This document shows, in pieces, positions 17,439 to 30,322 of a DNA stretch of 31,495 bases. A program made the translations under genes and the position numbers. How positions within the stretch are numbered: the stretch's first letter is position 1; each line of letters opens with the position of its first letter. The notes under the pieces were generated by a model. That model worked only from the letters and a program-made list of their open reading frames with translations, made no database searches and had not been told where the DNA came from. This DNA comes from a virus: the IMG/VR virus record IMGVR_UViG_3300017917_001824, positions 1 to 31,495 of that record; one strand, given 5' to 3'.

Positions 17439-17466
17439 AAACACCTCTTTTTGGGGTGTTTTTTTT
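17439..17466 (+). terminator. intrinsic terminator at the end of the late operon
   Basis: A 9-bp stem AAACACCTC with GGGGTGTTT (one G-T pair), loop TTTTT and a T tract to 17466. It separates the late genes from the promoter of the cassette array. Confidence 0.9.
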
Positions 17467-17488
17467 ATTTGTTAAATTATTTTACATA

Positions 17489-17522
17489 TTTTGTGTGTAT
17501 TAATATATTTTATGTATATTTG
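17489..17522 (+). promoter_or_regulatory. Bacteroidota promoter driving the cassette array
   Basis: TTTTG (17489-17493), 21 nt, then TATATTTG (17515-17522), a full match to the TTTG / TAnnTTTG consensus of Bacteroidota. Predicted transcription begins near 17529, just before the first half-site and the first cassette gene, and every array gene faces the same way, as with the Pc promoter of an integron. Confidence 0.75.
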
Positions 17523-17532
17523 CATAAATTAA

Positions 17533-17563
17533 TTAACGGTTTCGGGCTTGGCGAAGTTTTCGG
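17533..17563 (+). repeat. left-border half attC-like site
   Basis: TTAACGG followed by TTTCGGGCTTGGCGAAGTT, very like the left arm of the site at 21356 (AACGGTTTGCGGCTTTGCGA). I find no matching right arm before or inside the first gene. An AT-rich leader then leads to the ATG at 17582, the same layout as in the complete long sites. Confidence 0.55.
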
Positions 17564-17581
17564 AATTTAAAAATAAATATT

Positions 17582-17824
17582 ATGATTACGAAAGAACAAA
17601 TTACAGAAATATTAAATAACCACGCTGGTTATATTGACAGAAGCAGAACTGAACAAGCAGTTCATGAAGATAATTTTAATTATGTTGCAGACGAGATACT
17701 AAGTAAATTGAGCCAACATGATGTTATAAAAAACGAAGTTGCGGTTTGCTGTAAATGTTACTTAGGTCGCGGTTACATTTCTCTTTGTGAGAATTGCCTA
17801 AAAGCATTCACAAAAGCATGTTAG
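17582..17824 (+). CDS. first array gene: small protein with paired cysteines
   Basis: 80 residues. The first half is helical (MITKEQITEILNNHAGYIDR). The second half has CCKC, then CENC, then a terminal Cys, which suggests a small zinc-binding knuckle. It is the first gene after the promoter at 17489 and lies between the left half-site and the first complete site; the sequence just before that site (AACTGTTTTATAAC) should pair with the start of its own cassette, but I find only a doubtful partner inside the gene (GTTATATTGACAG at 17628). Function unknown. Confidence 0.6.
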   Translation: MITKEQITEILNNHAGYIDRSRTEQAVHEDNFNYVADEILSKLSQHDVIKNEVAVCCKCYLGRGYISLCENCLKAFTKAC

Positions 17825-17837
17825 CAAACTGTTTTAT

Positions 17838-18016
17838 AACGTATCGGTGCTATACGATGTGGCGGATTTTCAGCAGAAAGCCCAATACGAAGCCCCAAAG
17901 TTGAATTTAAAATAAATGTTTAATCGAAGCACAAATGTTCGGTTTAGCACCACACTTTAATAGATGCATAGGCGTTCAATTAACCACGAAACCCGCCATA
18001 TTGCCTATGTGCTGTT
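17838..18016 (+). repeat. attC-like site 1
   Basis: Left arm AACGTATCGGTGCTATACGA continuing to GGCGG; right arm CCGCCATATTGCCTATGTGC then TGTT. The arms pair over about 20 positions with mismatches. The loop of about 120 nt contains an AT-rich leader and an ATG (17916) opening a frame of only 14 codons. This covers most of the gene-free stretch 17825-18047. Confidence 0.7.
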
Positions 18017-18047
18017 ATAGGTAGGGCTTCTCACAAAATTAAAGACA

Positions 18048-18284
18048 ATGATGACACCAAAAGAAAAAGCAGATGAGCTATTCAGTAAAATGGATATGAT
18101 AATTTACACTGACCAAGATAATTGGAAAAGCCAATGTATTAGATGCGCTTTGATAGCAGTTGAAGAAATACTGCAAGAAGTTCCAGAAGAAATATTAGAC
18201 ACTTATAAGGGTGAAATTAATTTTGTAGATAATGAAAGGTATGAATTTTGGCAAAATGTTAAATTAGAACTGGAACGGCTTTAG
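18048..18284 (+). CDS. cassette 2: small conserved protein
   Basis: 78 residues: MTPKEKADELFSKMDMIIY, a middle CIRCALIAVEEILQEV and a C-terminal YEFWQNVKLELERL. I recognise this style from short hypothetical proteins that are common in Bacteroidota phages and cassettes; no function is known. The unit begins GTTATAGGTAGGGCT at 18014 and ends with AGCCTTACCTATAAC at 18297, complementary at 14 of 15 positions. Two ATG codons in a row (18048, 18051) make the exact start uncertain by one residue. Confidence 0.7.
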   Translation: MMTPKEKADELFSKMDMIIYTDQDNWKSQCIRCALIAVEEILQEVPEEILDTYKGEINFVDNERYEFWQNVKLELERL

Positions 18285-18294
18285 CCTTACCTAT

Positions 18295-18420
18295 AACGTC
18301 CGAGTGCTTTGCGTTCGGGCGGGATTATTAACCACTAAAGCAAATTTGAAAAATGAAAGATGAATTAACCATAAATGTTCAATCGGAGCAAGTCGCCCCG
18401 CCTGACGCAAAACACTTGTT
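18295..18420 (+). repeat. attC-like site 2 (supplies a start codon)
   Basis: Left arm AACGTCCGAGTGCTTTGCGT then GGGCGGG; right arm CCCCGCCTGACGCAAAACAC then TTGTT. AGTG, TTTGCGT and GGCGGG pair between arms, with extra bases on the left. The loop carries the ATG (18353) of the next gene. Length 126 nt, equal to site 7. Confidence 0.75.
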
Positions 18421-18742
18421 ACCTGCCGTGCTTTTGGATGATGAAGGTTATCCAACGGAGGAGTGGCTGCAATACCTTAGAACCTATAAGCCTGATGAAA
18501 GTTTGCCTTTGCTTACGTTCGTGCAAATGGTGCTTGTTTATGGTTGGTATATGTCAGATTGGGGATTTGTTTTACACCGAAAATACAAAGGTAAACGTAA
18601 ACTTGAATTACATACAGGCGGATGGAGCGGAAATGAAGAAACTATTGCAGCCATTAAATCGAATATGTGGCTTACTCACTTTCAAATGAGATATGTCATG
18701 TGGCGAACAGGTGGTCATTATTACTTTGAGTTGTCTGTCTGA
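18353..18742 (+). CDS. cassette 3: conserved phage hypothetical protein
   Basis: 129 residues. From residue 31 the sequence (EGYPTEEWLQYLRTYKPDES, then YKGKRKLELHTGGWSGNEET and a closing TGGHYYFEL) matches a family of unknown function that I recognise from many tailed phages. The first 22 residues (ending APPDAKHLL) are translated from attC-like site 2, upstream of the cassette boundary at 18418. The first internal Met is residue 59, inside the conserved part, so translation must begin in the site or at a GTG/TTG just after the boundary. The N-terminus shares DAKxLLPAV with the methyltransferase at 20590 because both cross similar sites. Confidence 0.72.
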   Translation: MKDELTINVQSEQVAPPDAKHLLPAVLLDDEGYPTEEWLQYLRTYKPDESLPLLTFVQMVLVYGWYMSDWGFVLHRKYKGKRKLELHTGGWSGNEETIAAIKSNMWLTHFQMRYVMWRTGGHYYFELSV

Positions 18743-18755
18743 TAGCATAGCAGCT

Positions 18756-18812
18756 AACGTTTTGCAACTTGGCGAACCTAAACACGGTACGTTTTTTCGC
18801 CAAATTGCTGTT
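18756..18812 (+). repeat. attC-like site 3 (compact)
   Basis: 57 nt, the length of a textbook attC. Left arm AACGTTTTGCAACTTGGCGA, right arm TTCGCCAAATTGCTGTT. GCAA and TTGGCGAA pair with the right arm, with five extra bases after AAC on the left against one before GTT on the right. The loop is about 15 nt and has no start codon. Confidence 0.8.
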
Positions 18813-18866
18813 ATGTATCAGTATGGCGAGTTTAACGAGAATAATAATTAAAAAAAGAAAAGATCG

Positions 18867-19313
18867 ATGGAAAAAAAGAAAATAGCAATGTATGATTTAG
18901 AAGGTAATTTACTTGAAGTGTTAGAAGGTAATGGATTTTCAGATATAGCAAGACAAATAAAAATTAAATCTCCTTCTTGCATATCTAAGTGTGTAAAAGG
19001 AGAAATAATACAGTCACATTTTAGACAATTTAGAATTGTTAGTAATGACAATGTAATTGAAAAACTACCATCTGCTTATGGTTATAGTCAAGGAAATAAA
19101 AGGAATATAATTCATAAATTTTATAAAGGCAAGTATATTTGCACATATGAAAATATGTATGATGCTGAATATAAAACAGGAATTAAACAAAGTTATATTT
19201 CCTATGTATTATCTAATAAGAGAAAATCAGCAGGAGGATTTAATTGGTATAAAGCAGAATTATTTGAAACATTAATTTATATTGGAAAAATGGAAAATCC
19301 ATTTAAAAAATAA
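18867..19313 (+). CDS. cassette 4: NUMOD-like DNA-binding protein
   Basis: 148 residues with two similar segments: MYDLEGNLLEVLEGNGFSDI through a CISKCVKGE turn to HFRQFRI (residues about 8-55), and KFYKGKYICTYENMYDAEYK through YISYVLSNKRKSAGGFNW (residues about 83-130). Each resembles a NUMOD1-type module (a short beta pair followed by a helix-turn-helix) that normally accompanies homing nucleases, yet no GIY-YIG or HNH nuclease motif is present. It may therefore be a stand-alone DNA-binding relic or regulator. Unit ends match: GTTATGTATCAGTATGGC against GCCATATTGTACATAAC with one gap and few mismatches. Confidence 0.65.
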   Translation: MEKKKIAMYDLEGNLLEVLEGNGFSDIARQIKIKSPSCISKCVKGEIIQSHFRQFRIVSNDNVIEKLPSAYGYSQGNKRNIIHKFYKGKYICTYENMYDAEYKTGIKQSYISYVLSNKRKSAGGFNWYKAELFETLIYIGKMENPFKK

Positions 19314-19381
19314 GTGCGTTGGATTTTCTTTTTCCTGCGATAAATATTAATCGAAGTGAGAATATTAGCCATATTGTACAT

Positions 19382-19492
19382 AACGGTTCGGCAGGGTTTA
19401 AAAAAGCACTTACCTGTCGGCTCGCACAAAGTTAATTAAGTGCATAAAACTTTCGGTTACCACAGACTCCCTGCTTTTGCATAGGTGCTGTT
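19382..19492 (+). repeat. attC-like site 4
   Basis: Left arm AACGGTTCGGCAGGGTTT, right arm CCCTGCTTTTGCATAGGTGC then TGTT. GCAGGG pairs with CCCTGC. The left arm seems to lack the partner of GCATAGGTGC, so it may have suffered a small deletion. Its right arm is very like that of site 9. It fills most of the gene-free stretch 19314-19516, where I see nothing else. Confidence 0.6.
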
Positions 19493-19516
19493 ATAAGCCG
19501 TTTTATTCAAATTATT

Positions 19517-19831
19517 ATGTTTAACAAAACTTACGAATTTAAGAAAATTAAAAAAGAATTAGAAACAATCAAGGTGTTAGATAAATATGCTTTGTTTGAA
19601 TGTTATGGGGATTCAATTGCTACTTTTGGTTATCGTGAAAACGGGACTTATCATCAATTTTGCGTAATTTGTGATGATGACTTTTCAAGAGAAATTCAGA
19701 TTTCAGATTTACTCGAATTAAAACGAATAACATTTTTTAGTCATGTTGTTTTTTTAGAGCAGTCAAGAAAAGCAGATGAACAAATTGCTTCTGTTTCTTG
19801 GTCAATGTATGAGAATAGCGGTCTTAATTAA
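19517..19831 (+). CDS. cassette 5: hypothetical protein
   Basis: 104 residues, acidic, mixed alpha-beta: an N-terminal helix (MFNKTYEFKKIKKELETIKV) and then strands (YALFECYGDSIATFGYRENG; HQFCVICDDDFSREIQISDL). There is no membrane segment or known motif. The unit starts GTTATAAGCCGTTTTATT and ends AATTAAATGGCTTATAAC, complementary at 16 of 18 positions. The gene has its own ATG 24 nt after the boundary, so it does not depend on the upstream site for its start. Function unknown. Confidence 0.65.
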   Translation: MFNKTYEFKKIKKELETIKVLDKYALFECYGDSIATFGYRENGTYHQFCVICDDDFSREIQISDLLELKRITFFSHVVFLEQSRKADEQIASVSWSMYENSGLN

Positions 19832-19840
19832 ATGGCTTAT

Positions 19841-19887
19841 AACGGAACGCAAGTAGGCATCCGTTTTAATGGTGCTTACTTGCTGTT
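19841..19887 (+). repeat. attC-like site 5 (shortest)
   Basis: 47 nt. Left arm AACGGAACGCAAGTAGGCAT, right arm GGTGCTTACTTGCTGTT. GCAAGTA pairs perfectly with TACTTGC; the left spacer after AAC has five bases against one on the right. Loop about 10 nt. Confidence 0.8.
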
Positions 19888-19932
19888 ATCGGATAGTAAA
19901 GGCTACGAAATTAAAATACTAAAATTTAAAAT

Positions 19933-20130
19933 ATGAAACAGAAATTTTTATTTATTAAAATGCTTTGGATGGTTCTTAGAAACAAGGAAAGTGGTTGGAT
20001 GTTCTTTAGAATGACAGAGCAACAACAAGAGGATTTTTTAAACGGCAGAAAAGATATTGACATTACATTTAGATATGTAGGAATGGATAAAAGAGTTGTT
20101 GCGAAAGTTGTGGAACGGTTACAGAAGTAG
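19933..20130 (+). CDS. cassette 6: small basic protein
   Basis: 65 residues. MKQKFLFIKMLWMVLRN is hydrophobic with basic residues, then a soluble part follows (MTEQQQEDFLNGRKDIDITF; a closing KVVERLQK). The stop TAG lies inside the cassette-end repeat: GTTATCGGATAGTAAAGGCTAC at the start, and at the end a complement with the same sequence apart from a three-base difference. This is the longest start-end match in the array (about 20 positions). Function unknown. Confidence 0.6.
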   Translation: MKQKFLFIKMLWMVLRNKESGWMFFRMTEQQQEDFLNGRKDIDITFRYVGMDKRVVAKVVERLQK

Positions 20131-20144
20131 CCTTTATTTCCGAT

Positions 20145-20473
20145 AACGAAAGACGATAAGCGAAGAAATTAAGGCGAATAAATAACTAAAAATATGAACG
20201 ATGAAGGATTTAAAAATTAGAGTAAGTAACATGGATGAACAGTCAATTGTTTATCAGCTACTTGAAAAATTAGGATATGATAAACTTTGGTATAAAAAAT
20301 CAAATGCACATAAGTTTATTTTTGCTGATAAAAACGGTGAAATAGGAATTGGAGTAAGTAAAGATTCTAAAAACTTTGAAAAATCTGAACACATGGAAAC
20401 TGATGTTTTAGGATTGCAAAAAATGTTGGATGAACACGAATCTAAGCCTTAATTATTTTGCTTATCGTGTGTT
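20145..20473 (+). repeat. attC-like site 6 with a whole gene in its loop
   Basis: Left arm AACGAAAGACGATAAGCGAA extending to AATTAAGGC (20174); right arm GCCTTAATTATTTTGCTTAT then CGTGTGTT. CGATAAGC and AATTAAGGC pair between arms. The 329-nt span encloses the gene at 20201-20452. The unit that follows (20471-20513, GTTAGTAGTAAG to TTACTACTAAC) is only 43 nt and has no gene. Confidence 0.65.
20201..20452 (+). CDS. gene inside site 6: hypothetical protein
   Basis: 83 residues: MKDLKIRVSNMDEQSIVYQL, then a LEKLGYDKLWYKK segment, then HKFIFADKNGEIGIGVSKDS and an acidic C-terminus. The predicted order is strand, helix, strand, strand, helix. No motif is recognisable. It lies wholly between the two arms of the palindrome 20145-20473, and its final codons (SKP, stop) run into the right arm. 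That is unusual for an attC-type site, whose loop is normally non-coding. An ATG at 20194 in another frame gives only eight codons, so 20201 is the start. Confidence 0.62.
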   Translation: MKDLKIRVSNMDEQSIVYQLLEKLGYDKLWYKKSNAHKFIFADKNGEIGIGVSKDSKNFEKSEHMETDVLGLQKMLDEHESKP

Positions 20474-20510
20474 AGTAGTAAGCGATAGCGACCCGTTTAG
20501 GGTTACTACT

Positions 20511-20636
20511 AACGTTTTGCGGCTTTGCGTTCGTTGGGGTTTCCCAGCACTAAAGCCGATAAGGAGTACAAATTTTAATTTAAGCACAAATGATTATAGA
20601 AAGCACTAAAGCCCCCAATGACGCAAAACCGCTGTT
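20511..20636 (+). repeat. attC-like site 7 (supplies a start codon)
   Basis: Left arm AACGTTTTGCGGCTTTGCGT then TTGGGG; right arm CCCCAATGACGCAAAACCGC then TGTT. GCGG, TTTGCGT and TTGGGG pair between arms. AGCACTAAAGCC occurs twice in the loop (about 20546 and 20610). The ATG of the methyltransferase (20590) lies in this site, which covers the gene-free stretch 20514-20589. Confidence 0.78.
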
Positions 20637-21330
20637 ACCAGCAGTGCCTTCATCGGAGGTTTATTTGGAAGATTGTGTAAAGGCATTAAAACGCTTTAAC
20701 GATAAGCATTTTGACTTGGCAATAGTTGACCCGCCCTATGGGATTGGCTTTGATAGAGAAAATCCTACTATGAGTGCAGGAGTGCGAAAGGATGGGACTA
20801 AGAGGAAAATGGCAAGTTGGAGTAACCCAAAAGAAAAAGGATATACTAAAAAGGATTGGGACAAGGAAACGCCAAGCGAGGAATACTGGAATGAATTAAT
20901 GAGAGTATCTAAAAATCAAATTATTTGGGGTGGTAACTATTTTACGGACTATTTAAAGCCACACGGTGGGTGGATTGTGTGGGAAAAAGGAGTTCCTGAA
21001 GGTATGAGTTTATCACAGGCGGAATTGGCTTGGAATAGTTGCTTAAATAGTGTGAGAATTGTAAAAGTTTTATGGGCTGGATATAAAAAAGCGGATAATG
21101 AAGATAGATTTCATCCAACGCAAAAGCCTGTTAGATTATACGATTGGATATTACTGAACTTTGCAAAGCCAAATGATTTGATTTTAGATACCCATTTAGG
21201 AAGTGGAAGCAGTAGGATTGCAGCGTATAAAGGCGGGTTCAACTTTGTAGGGTTTGAAATAGACCAAGAATATTATGAGAAACAAGAAAAGCGTTTTAAT
21301 GACTTTAAATCACAACTACGGTTATTTTAG
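20590..21330 (+). CDS. cassette 8: DNA methyltransferase (N6-adenine or N4-cytosine)
   Basis: 246 residues. Catalytic DPPY lies at residues 47-50 (LAIVDPPYGIGFD), HPTQKP at 175-180, and the SAM-binding motif DTHLGSGSS at 200-208, followed by GFEIDQEYYEKQEKRF. DPPY before the SAM motif is the beta-class order. It probably methylates phage or host DNA and protects from restriction. The first 15 residues (MIIESTKAPNDAKPL) come from attC-like site 7; the first internal Met is residue 61, after the catalytic motif, so the start is either this ATG or a GTG just past the boundary. Unit ends GTTACCAGCAGTGCC and GGCATTGCTGGTAAC match at 14 of 15. Confidence 0.88.
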   Translation: MIIESTKAPNDAKPLLPAVPSSEVYLEDCVKALKRFNDKHFDLAIVDPPYGIGFDRENPTMSAGVRKDGTKRKMASWSNPKEKGYTKKDWDKETPSEEYWNELMRVSKNQIIWGGNYFTDYLKPHGGWIVWEKGVPEGMSLSQAELAWNSCLNSVRIVKVLWAGYKKADNEDRFHPTQKPVRLYDWILLNFAKPNDLILDTHLGSGSSRIAAYKGGFNFVGFEIDQEYYEKQEKRFNDFKSQLRLF

Positions 21331-21355
21331 CGGTGTCGGTTCTGGCATTGCTGGT

Positions 21356-21438
21356 AACGGTTTGCGGCTTTGCGAAGTTGCTTAAATAAATTAAATATGA
21401 AACAATACAGATTGATACAATTTTGCAAAGCCGCTGTT
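21356..21438 (+). repeat. attC-like site 8
   Basis: Left arm AACGGTTTGCGGCTTTGCGA then AGTTG; right arm CAATTTTGCAAAGCCGCTGTT. GCGGCTTTGC pairs exactly with GCAAAGCCGC. The 83-nt site carries an AT-rich leader and the ATG at 21397 of the next small frame. Confidence 0.82.
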
Positions 21439-21549
21439 AGCGGTAGGTTCGTTCCTTTTAGATATTATCTCACAGAGTTTTTCTGTTGGGTTGTATGTGG
21501 AATTGATTACTATAAGAATTATAGGAGGTTTTACAGAACTGACCGCTAA
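21397..21549 (+). CDS. cassette 9: small 50-residue frame
   Basis: 50 residues, aromatic and basic (MKQYRLIQFCKAAVSGRFVP, ending FYRTDR). The start lies in the loop of site 8, and the TAA stop is formed by the CTAAC at the edge of site 9, so the frame spans the whole unit (21436-21550). The unit ends match: GTTAGCGGTAGGTTC against GAACTGACCGCTAAC with two mismatches. It could equally be a cassette whose gene is not protein-coding; the even filling of the unit is the only support. No family recognised. Confidence 0.4.
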   Translation: MKQYRLIQFCKAAVSGRFVPFRYYLTEFFCWVVCGIDYYKNYRRFYRTDR

Positions 21550-21668
21550 CGGCTGACGCTATACGAAGGCAGGGTTAAGATGCACTCCCTTTCAGCCTTA
21601 AATAAATGATAAAAGATGTACGAACGCTCACTTTAGCAGTACGCCCCTGCTTTTGTATAGCGTATGTT
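21548..21668 (+). repeat. attC-like site 9
   Basis: Left arm AACGGCTGACGCTATACGAA then GGCAGGG; right arm CCCCTGCTTTTGTATAGCGT then ATGTT. ACGCTATAC and GCAGGG pair between arms. The loop holds ATG at 21606 opening 24 codons that run across the boundary. This site covers the gene-free stretch 21550-21690. Confidence 0.78.
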
Positions 21669-21690
21669 ATAGGGCGTTAATCTTTGAAAA

Positions 21691-21894
21691 ATGAACTTAA
21701 TAGAAGGATTACAAGAAGAAATTAAAAGGGTAAACGAAATTATTAAAGAATATGATGAGTTACCAAGTGGTGCAGGAGCTTTCGCTTCTGCAATGATGAA
21801 AGGCAGTATAAAGATTGCAGAAAAAGCCATCGCAAATATGGACACGGTAGCAATGTTGTCTGCAATTAAAGATTTAAAGGAGTACGAGCTTTAA
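21691..21894 (+). CDS. cassette 10: small conserved helical protein
   Basis: 67 residues: MNLIEGLQEEIKRVNEIIKE, YDELPSGAGAFASAMMKGSI and a C-terminal MLSAIKDLKEYEL. The central LPSGAGAFASAMM pattern is one I recognise from short hypothetical proteins of Bacteroidota, function unknown. The stop codon falls in the end repeat; unit ends GTTATAGGGCGTTAA and TTAATGCCCTATAAC match at 14 of 15. Its own ATG follows the boundary by 23 nt. Confidence 0.68.
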   Translation: MNLIEGLQEEIKRVNEIIKEYDELPSGAGAFASAMMKGSIKIAEKAIANMDTVAMLSAIKDLKEYEL

Positions 21895-21902
21895 TGCCCT
21901 AT

Positions 21903-21925
21903 AACTTACTTATTGGCGAAATTTT
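21903..21925 (+). repeat. right-border half attC-like site
   Basis: AACTTACTTATTGGCGAAAT resembles the left arm of site 3 (TTGGCGAA) and closes cassette 10. No right arm is found downstream. An AT-rich leader then leads to the ATG at 21940, as at the left border. Confidence 0.5.
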
Positions 21926-22766: not shown

Positions 22767-22794
22767 AAAAAGGGGGTTAATTACTCCCTTTTTT
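22767..22794 (+). terminator. intrinsic terminator after the lysin gene
   Basis: An 11-bp stem, AAAAAGGGGGT with ACTCCCTTTTT (one G-T pair), a 5-nt loop and a final T tract to 22794. Confidence 0.88.
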
Positions 22795-22819
22795 ATTGCT
22801 TAAAAATTATTTTTATATA

Positions 22820-22853
22820 TTTTATGTATATTAATATAATTTGTGTATATTTG
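22820..22853 (+). promoter_or_regulatory. promoter of the early recombination operon
   Basis: TATATTTG at 22846-22853 preceded by ATTTGTG; TTTTA at 22820-22824 in the -33 position, 21 nt upstream. The sequence ATTTGTGTATATTTGC is near-identical to parts of the promoter at 17489, with the same tail GCATAAATT. Confidence 0.65.
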
Positions 22854-22870
22854 CATAAATTTTAAATAAA

Positions 22871-26171: not shown

Positions 26172-26974
26172 TATTTAACGACCATTTTCAGAACTTTAAA
26201 AGCTATAATTTGCATAAGGCGCAATTAATTATAGCTGACATTCCTTATAATTTAGGGAATAACGCATACGCATCAAATCCAGCTTGGTATAAAGACGGGG
26301 ATAATTCAAACGGAGAAAGCTAACTAGCTGGAAAATCTTTTTTTGATACAGATGAAAATTTTAAACCAGCAGAATTTATGCACTTTTGTTCAAAAATGCT
26401 AAAGAATGAACCGAAAGAAAAAGGACAAGCACCATGCATGATTGTTTTTTGTGCGTTTGACCAACAAATGTATTTAATCGAATTAGCAAAAAGATACGGT
26501 TTGAACAATTATATTAATTTAGTTTTCCGTAAAAATTTCAGCGCACAAGTATTAAAAGCAAATATGAAAGTAGTAGGAAATTGCGAGTATGGAGTTCTTT
26601 TTTATCGAGACAAACTACCTAAATTCAACAATAAAGGTAAAATGATTTTTAATTGTTTCGATTGGGAAAAAGATGAGCCAACAGTTCCTAAATTACACCC
26701 GACACAAAAGCCTAAAAAGTTGCTAAAAAAATTAATTGAAATTTTCACAGATGAGGGAGATATTGTAATAGACCCTTGTTGTGGAAGTGGTAGCACAGTA
26801 GTTTCAGCTATTGAAATGAATCGAAAAGGTTTTGGATTTGAAATAAAAAAAGACTTTTACGCACTTGCAAAAGGTTGGGTTGAAGATACAATTAAGATCA
26901 AAAAAGATATTGATACTTTTGGATTCGCAAAAACGCAAATAGAAAAAGAAGGTATTAATTTGTTCAGCGAGTGA
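26168..26974 (+). pseudogene. N6-adenine DNA methyltransferase broken by an in-frame TAA
   Basis: The frame from ATG 26168 encodes IIADIPYNLGNNAYASNPAW (catalytic DIPY at residues 24-27), reaches TAA at 26321-26323 (codon 52), and continues in the same frame with LAGKSFFDTDENFKPAEFMH, LHPTQKP and the SAM motif DPCCGSGST to 26974. The text on both sides fits one continuous beta-class methyltransferase of about 268 residues, in which the stop replaces what looks like a lysine codon (AAA to TAA). A restart at ATG 26378 would lack the catalytic motif. So it is inactive unless the stop is read through or is a sequence error. Confidence 0.78.
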
Positions 26975-30252: not shown

Positions 30253-30263
30253 ATATTTATATA

Positions 30264-30297
30264 TTTTGTGTACAATTAAAAAATATTTGTATATTTG
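30264..30297 (+). promoter_or_regulatory. promoter of the last small operon
   Basis: TTTTG (30264-30268), 21 nt, then TATATTTG (30290-30297). Spacing and sequence match the promoter at 17489, including TTTTGTG in the -33 region. Confidence 0.75.
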
Positions 30298-30322
30298 CTG
30301 AAACTAAAAAAAAATAAAGTTC

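Follow-up and report, generated by a model that had tools for sequence, protein, structure and literature searches.

How does a phage with no integrase of its own come to carry an orderly array of small genes set apart by imperfect palindromes, and by what route might such genes pass from one genome to another? The question is raised by the virus record IMGVR_UViG_3300017917_001824, whose 31,495 nucleotides were analysed as a whole (hereafter the window) and which holds such an array between positions 17,533 and 21,925. The array is in all likelihood of the integron type: a small flavobacterial phage here carries a CALIN (cluster of attC sites lacking an integron integrase) drawn from an attC family that extends across the Bacteroidota, and its mobile module appears to be a hairpin together with the gene that follows it, an arrangement that puts viral cassettes back to front. 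At the level of sequence, the limits of the module, the crossover box, the inverted viral polarity and the linkage of arrays to an integrase and attI in large phages are all shown by comparison between loci.

Nine imperfect AAC...GTT hairpins lie between 17838 and 21668, a span of 3.8 kb, every one with AACG on the plus strand, and the small genes of the array are likewise all on the plus strand, just as the initial annotation had described. A half site at 17535 opens the array and a terminal AAC at 21903-21905, with no further hairpin, closes it; there are nine units, each extending from a GTT to the next AAC. The hairpins resemble integron attC sites in that the fold rather than the sequence is conserved, and the two boxes of one hairpin have little in common beyond GTTA. 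Single strands fold better than shuffled sequence, clearly for the short hairpins (z-scores of -2.8 to -3.7 at three sites) and weakly for the long ones (-1.1 to -1.5 at three sites), and an Rfam scan of the window returned no match. The genes flanking the array are phage genes, as first annotated, with a terminase 59% identical to that of Nonlabens phage P12024L. No tyrosine recombinase was found in the contig, which is linear and may be incomplete, in agreement with the earlier view of a phage array without its own integrase; with nine hairpins in 3.8 kb, the locus falls within the definition of a CALIN (at least two attC sites within 4 kb, without an integrase).

The ends of the units carry the strongest trace of their history. 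Complementarity between the two ends of a unit amounts to 4-11 nt, GTTA included, and to 81 in total, a value reached by 0 of 200,000 permutations, and the claim that the two ends of a unit pair with one another, and not with those of its neighbours, therefore stands. The circular form of an integron cassette carries both halves of its own attC site, from which the complementary ends of a cassette arise. By this known biology, complementary unit ends imply that every unit once existed in a form that brought its two ends face to face, and a circular intermediate of integron-type cassettes, as initially proposed, is supported as their origin. Relatives of the methyltransferase unit occur in 41 viral contigs, and the DNA similarity begins at 20633, in the GTT box, in 24 matches and stops at 21358, in the AAC box, in 16; the hairpin at 21356-21438 and its following open reading frame (ORF) recur at 98.5% identity in another locus (L169), the likeness again stopping at AAC. 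At the position of the array, relatives of the phage that share its lysin carry different genes or almost nothing; the array is thus variable cargo. A clean empty site was not seen among these relatives, whose DNA identity near the array is only about 75-80%. In relatives of the window phage (L005-L018) this variable spot, between the holin-like ORFs and the lysin, is filled by a 286-aa phosphoesterase-like protein and an ORF of 79-81 aa.

Which hairpin belongs to which gene can be read from units that recur in different contexts. Loci were gathered with three kinds of query, the hairpin pattern, a single cassette protein and the integrase, and frequencies among them are accordingly not population estimates; of the minimal units with linked ends that they yielded, 653 in all, 492 are viral and 161 bacterial. 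Where similar units stand in different surroundings, a unit retains the hairpin upstream of it on the AACG strand but not the one at its other end (48 pairs in 11 families versus 0), both in viruses, where the hairpin stays with the following unit (12 pairs in seven families versus 0), and by the same strand convention in hosts (36 pairs in four families versus 0). The recombining box is therefore AAC on the AACG strand, or G|TT on the other, in bacteria and viruses alike. Two apparent exceptions proved to be nested units within a single locus (L458) and vanished when only minimal units were used. The genes, with coding strand assigned by the longest ORF and in agreement with the annotation of isolated phages, do not share this uniformity: bacterial cassettes have the order expected of integrons, gene and then attC (120 versus 9), whereas viral cassettes are inverted, hairpin and then gene (357 versus 4). 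An ORF starts inside the hairpin in 111 of 307 viral cases (36%) versus 5 of 141 host cases (4%). The window array obeys the viral rule, and for that reason has a hairpin as its first element and a gene as its last; the earlier interpretation must accordingly be corrected in that the mobile unit is a hairpin with its following gene, the inverse of a classical cassette. One bacterial genome (L533, G033:C1:2190600-2209500) has an integrase of the host group and six hairpins arranged as in viruses, and may represent a prophage or an inverted integron.

Isolated phages show the modules changing places. The virulent Flavobacterium phages hemulen, stinky, snork and filifjonk, isolated from the Baltic (PMC7077304), carry arrays of the window type. 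Hemulen6-1 and stinky9-1, more than 99.9% identical in their flanks, differ by about 1.2 kb that includes a methyltransferase unit, and between hemulen and snork one module is replaced. All junctions examined between near-identical isolates lie within TAACGT, and these breakpoints, together with the junctions of attI and cassette described below, are compatible with crossover at G|TT on the complementary strand, to a resolution short of the exact base. The initial annotation had expected clean differences between related phages, and clean swaps were indeed seen, but their boundary is the AAC box before the hairpin and not the GTT box after it. The complete hemulen6-1 genome is without an integrase. 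The methyltransferase of the hemulen unit is present in 27 Flavobacterium phage records and varies between isolates as a cassette. One methyltransferase is missing from all the Flavobacterium phages whose plating on strain LMO6 is reduced 1,000-10,000-fold (PMC7077304), a result that bears on cassette function, the hemulen cassette enzyme being only a candidate for the gene in question; the words "cassette" and "palindrom" are absent from the main text of that paper.

Two groups of tyrosine recombinases, one viral and one bacterial, adjoin arrays of this family. The viral integrase, of about 265 aa, has relatives in 283 viral stretches, and in 71 of the 79 loci examined it is preceded by hairpins on its own strand: 339 in all, against none on the other strand, three downstream and four in shuffled sequence, with the nearest at a median of 348 bp. 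A conserved attI core, AAC|TATTATATATA, separates the last cassette from the integrase and in most loci stands 56-85 bp ahead of the latter; across 51 closed viral loci it is preceded by 33 different cassette ends, and the six bases ahead of AAC vary with the cassette. The bacterial integrase is longer (about 350-390 aa). An array follows it in 10 of 16 loci, where 59 sites have the strand and position expected. In 8 of 11 loci, AAC|T..TATATA or a near variant adjoins the array, some 100-160 bp away from the stop codon of the integrase. An attI beside the integrase is thus found in viral and host relatives alike; attI core and attC are common to viruses and bacteria, and the transcription of genes and integrase together is flipped as a whole between them. 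A T4-type capsid gene is present in 9 of 16 integrase-bearing viral contigs versus 0 of 14 controls, which marks these as real and often large phages, represented here by metagenomic contigs.

The linked gene is a tyrosine recombinase by its matches to PF00589 and, in part, TIGR02249, and it differs from IntI. The insertion in the catalytic domain that characterizes IntI is missing in both groups: TIGR02249 matches fall below the cut-off in two separate segments, and the middle (positions about 180-237) is absent. In the tree, canonical IntI form one group (support 100/100), the bacterial array integrases another (90/86), and the viral array integrases group with two temperate phage integrases (98/90), the viral group alone being weakly supported (57/74). 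An AlphaFold model of the viral integrase is weak (predicted local distance difference test 69, predicted template modelling score 0.41), and its fold matches to XerA and IntI4 add little.

The hairpin family itself is broadly distributed. Bacterial genomes among the matches listed for the hairpin-arm pattern TAACGKTTTGCRRCTTKGCG are nearly all Bacteroidota and their relatives, and viral contigs match as well; a related pattern occurs in 12 of 61 genomes from the genus of a Flavobacterium, versus 0 of 61 for a read-backwards control, and the typical hairpin of the family is 118-127 bp long. A shorter motif, GCAAARCCGCTGTTA, was set aside, its occurrence in viral contigs being near chance expectation. 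In the closed chromosome of Bacteroidota bacterium SSA2, hairpin sites lie on one strand only in the stretches examined between about 3.64 and 3.98 Mb, in one stretch at about 20 per 20 kb, and this very long cassette array (L422-L425, L225) has a divergent integrase near its end. Canonical IntI, at the curated cut-off, is present in 46 of 148 genomes of the phylum, without hairpins of the window type beside it, and an early notion that Bacteroidota lack canonical IntI was dropped on this count. The figure exceeds what one would expect from the 2022 IntegronFinder survey, which covered complete genomes: IntegronFinder 2.0 named one complete integron in Bacteroidetes proper (PMC9024848).

With regard to cargo, loci fetched by the hairpin pattern gave 11 N6/N4 and three C5 methylase matches in 57 ORFs, and the corresponding counts were 2 of 40 in integrase-centred loci and 1 of 60 in host cassettes; the methyltransferase enrichment is in part a sampling effect, some loci having been fetched with a methyltransferase query. 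Viral cassettes also encode an anti-Thoeris protein (Tad3), RNA ligase, YopX and proteins resembling phosphoadenosine phosphosulfate (PAPS) reductase. The promoter motif TAnnTTTG is not enriched inside the hairpins, so that self-promoting cassettes are not supported, and the array is probably expressed by read-through from a phage promoter.

The mechanism most likely behind these observations has its crossover at the TAA|C that precedes a hairpin, equivalent to G|TT on the complementary strand. The short viral tyrosine recombinase would excise modules as circles by way of the folded hairpin and join them at attI or at other hairpins. The window phage would be recipient and donor in trans, the enzyme presumably being provided by a co-infecting or resident phage that encodes it, and transcription of the cassette genes, several of which begin within the hairpin before them, would come from the promoter that the phage has upstream of the array. 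The cargo consists largely of small proteins of unknown function, accompanied by DNA methyltransferases whose presumed role is to shield phage DNA from restriction. Several points weigh against this account. It is built on comparison; the source of the integrase for the window phage was not seen; no attI was found in the window, and the right end of its array is not attI-like; no isolated phage in the collection has the viral array integrase at an identity of at least 60%; and gene strand in the polarity counts was judged by the longest ORF. Moreover, a likeness of 16 bp between two hairpins could let homologous recombination create the difference between hemulen and stinky.

That last point belongs to a broader alternative, that the hairpins are mere hot spots for homologous or microhomology recombination in phages that use no site-specific enzyme. 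The 8-16 bp common to hairpin arms would suffice for slippage, and the window and the complete hemulen6-1 genome are both without an integrase; we nevertheless regard this explanation as very unlikely, for it accounts neither for the end complementarity of each unit, nor for the constant polarity of the modules, nor for the fact that in large phages the arrays are accompanied by a recombinase and a conserved attI. Less plausible still, and already disfavoured, is a transposon, a repetitive extragenic palindrome (REP)/RAYT or a single-strand (HUH) system that uses hairpins and is unrelated to integrons. Such a system would fit sites that are hairpin-dependent and strand-asymmetric, and is scarcely reconcilable with a linked tyrosine recombinase, with boundaries that are single AAC/GTT boxes, or with unit ends complementary as in a circular form.

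It might also be supposed that these are ordinary bacterial cassettes, taken from a host integron by the host's integrase. Host genomes do contain the hairpin family, the attI core and an array-linked integrase, yet the genes of host cassettes face the opposite way, the integrases of viral arrays form a lineage of their own, and no unit is shared between the host and viral sets at 80% identity; this origin is accordingly judged unlikely. The matching polarity and the lack of units common with bacterial arrays at that identity make the viral pool the more likely source of the cassettes in the window. Of the initial proposal that a host supplied the integrase, acquisition in trans is retained, and the host is a less likely supplier than another phage, given the viral polarity, the absence of shared units and the integrase adjoining arrays in 71 viral loci. 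We favour, with some reserve, a wider reading of integron-type exchange among viruses: Bacteroidota phages would run a separate integron system for the swapping of counter-defence genes, with an integrase and attI dedicated to phages and with inverted cassettes in circulation from virus to virus, large phages supplying the enzyme and small ones carrying enzyme-free arrays, with polarity keeping the bacterial pool apart.

The layout of the array, all on the plus strand, is as follows. A promoter had been placed ahead of it in the initial annotation, and a promoter-like TATATTTG was found at 17515-17522, directly ahead of the array, within an element (17460-17530) for which a promoter role is presumed. 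This element of about 70 nt recurs at 22789-22861 (86%) and 30256-30307 (79%), and each copy precedes a stretch of the phage genome. The array starts at AAC|G with a first hairpin of which only the 5' arm (AACGGTTTCGGGCTTGGCGAAG, 17535-17560) was recognized, a well-paired 3' arm not being found; this degenerate hairpin seems to enclose an ORF of 80 aa (17582-17824, no significant Pfam match), as hairpin F encloses one of 83 aa. Hairpin A (17838-18016, 179 bp) precedes an ORF of 78 aa (18048-18284; phrog_21441, unknown function), and hairpin B (18295-18420) contains the ATG of a 129-aa ORF (18353-18742) that reads through G|TT, one of three ORFs in the window with a start codon inside the preceding hairpin. 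There follow hairpin C (18756-18812, 57 bp, folding z -3.7) with an ORF of 148 aa weakly matching NUMOD1/HNH-related proteins (18867-19313), hairpin D (19382-19492, 5' arm partly lost) with one of 104 aa (19517-19831), and hairpin E (19841-19887, 47 bp, z -3.6) with one of 65 aa (19933-20130). Hairpin F (20145-20473, stem score 12.5) holds its complete 83-aa ORF (20201-20452, a weak match to phrog_7617) in the loop, and next to it is a 43-bp unit without a gene (20471-20513) whose ends are complementary over 11 nt; a similar imperfect palindrome of 21 bp lies at 17820-17840. Hairpin G (20511-20636) contains the first ATG of the 246-aa DNA N6/N4 methyltransferase (20590-21330; PF01555, E=1.2e-18; phrog_23224), hairpin H (21356-21438, z -2.8), the one recurring in L169, contains the start of a 50-aa ORF (21397-21549), and hairpin I (21548-21668) precedes the last ORF, of 67 aa (21691-21894), ahead of the closing AAC box, beyond which stand the genes on the lysin side. 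A second methyltransferase-like ORF with a DPCCGSGST motif lies outside the array at 26378-26974.

If this reading is correct, phages own a dedicated site-specific system for swapping small genes, one that provides a mechanism for the modular accessory regions of phage genomes usually ascribed to illegitimate recombination; integrons whose integrases lack the IntI hallmark would be widespread in the Bacteroidota, and the separation of viral and bacterial cassette pools by polarity is a testable account. In the literature searched, which did not extend to preprints and subscription journals, neither the inverted cassettes of viruses, nor the viral integrase together with its attI, nor the bacterial family was found described. 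Phage CALINs are known, including that of Polaribacter phage P12002L, which has only two sites of the window type, and five of six tested phage sites recombine with IntI1 in Escherichia coli (Qi et al., 2023; PMC9892861). Like the window array, these are clusters of attC-like sites without an integrase, with methyltransferase cargo, in virulent phages, but they were presented either as classical arrays or as divergently oriented sites, and neither a phage-type integrase with attI nor inverted polarity was reported. The closest relatives of the viral array integrase in isolated phages are those of the temperate flavophages Freya and Ingeline, at about 37% identity and in the same tree group (98/90); these differ in having no hairpins of the window type beside them. 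Transcription of the integrase toward attI is known from Treponema (PMC3607928), and the bacterial members of the present family share this arrangement, with the integrase read toward attI and thus the same way as the cassette genes; the Treponema integrases, however, are IntI, and the inverted viral version is not described there. With classical integrons of IntI, attI and attC the present family shares the AAC/GTT boxes, the G|TT crossover, hairpin sites, cassettes and an attI beside the integrase, whereas its integrases are without the IntI-specific insertion and form a group apart, and in its viral members the genes face the other way.

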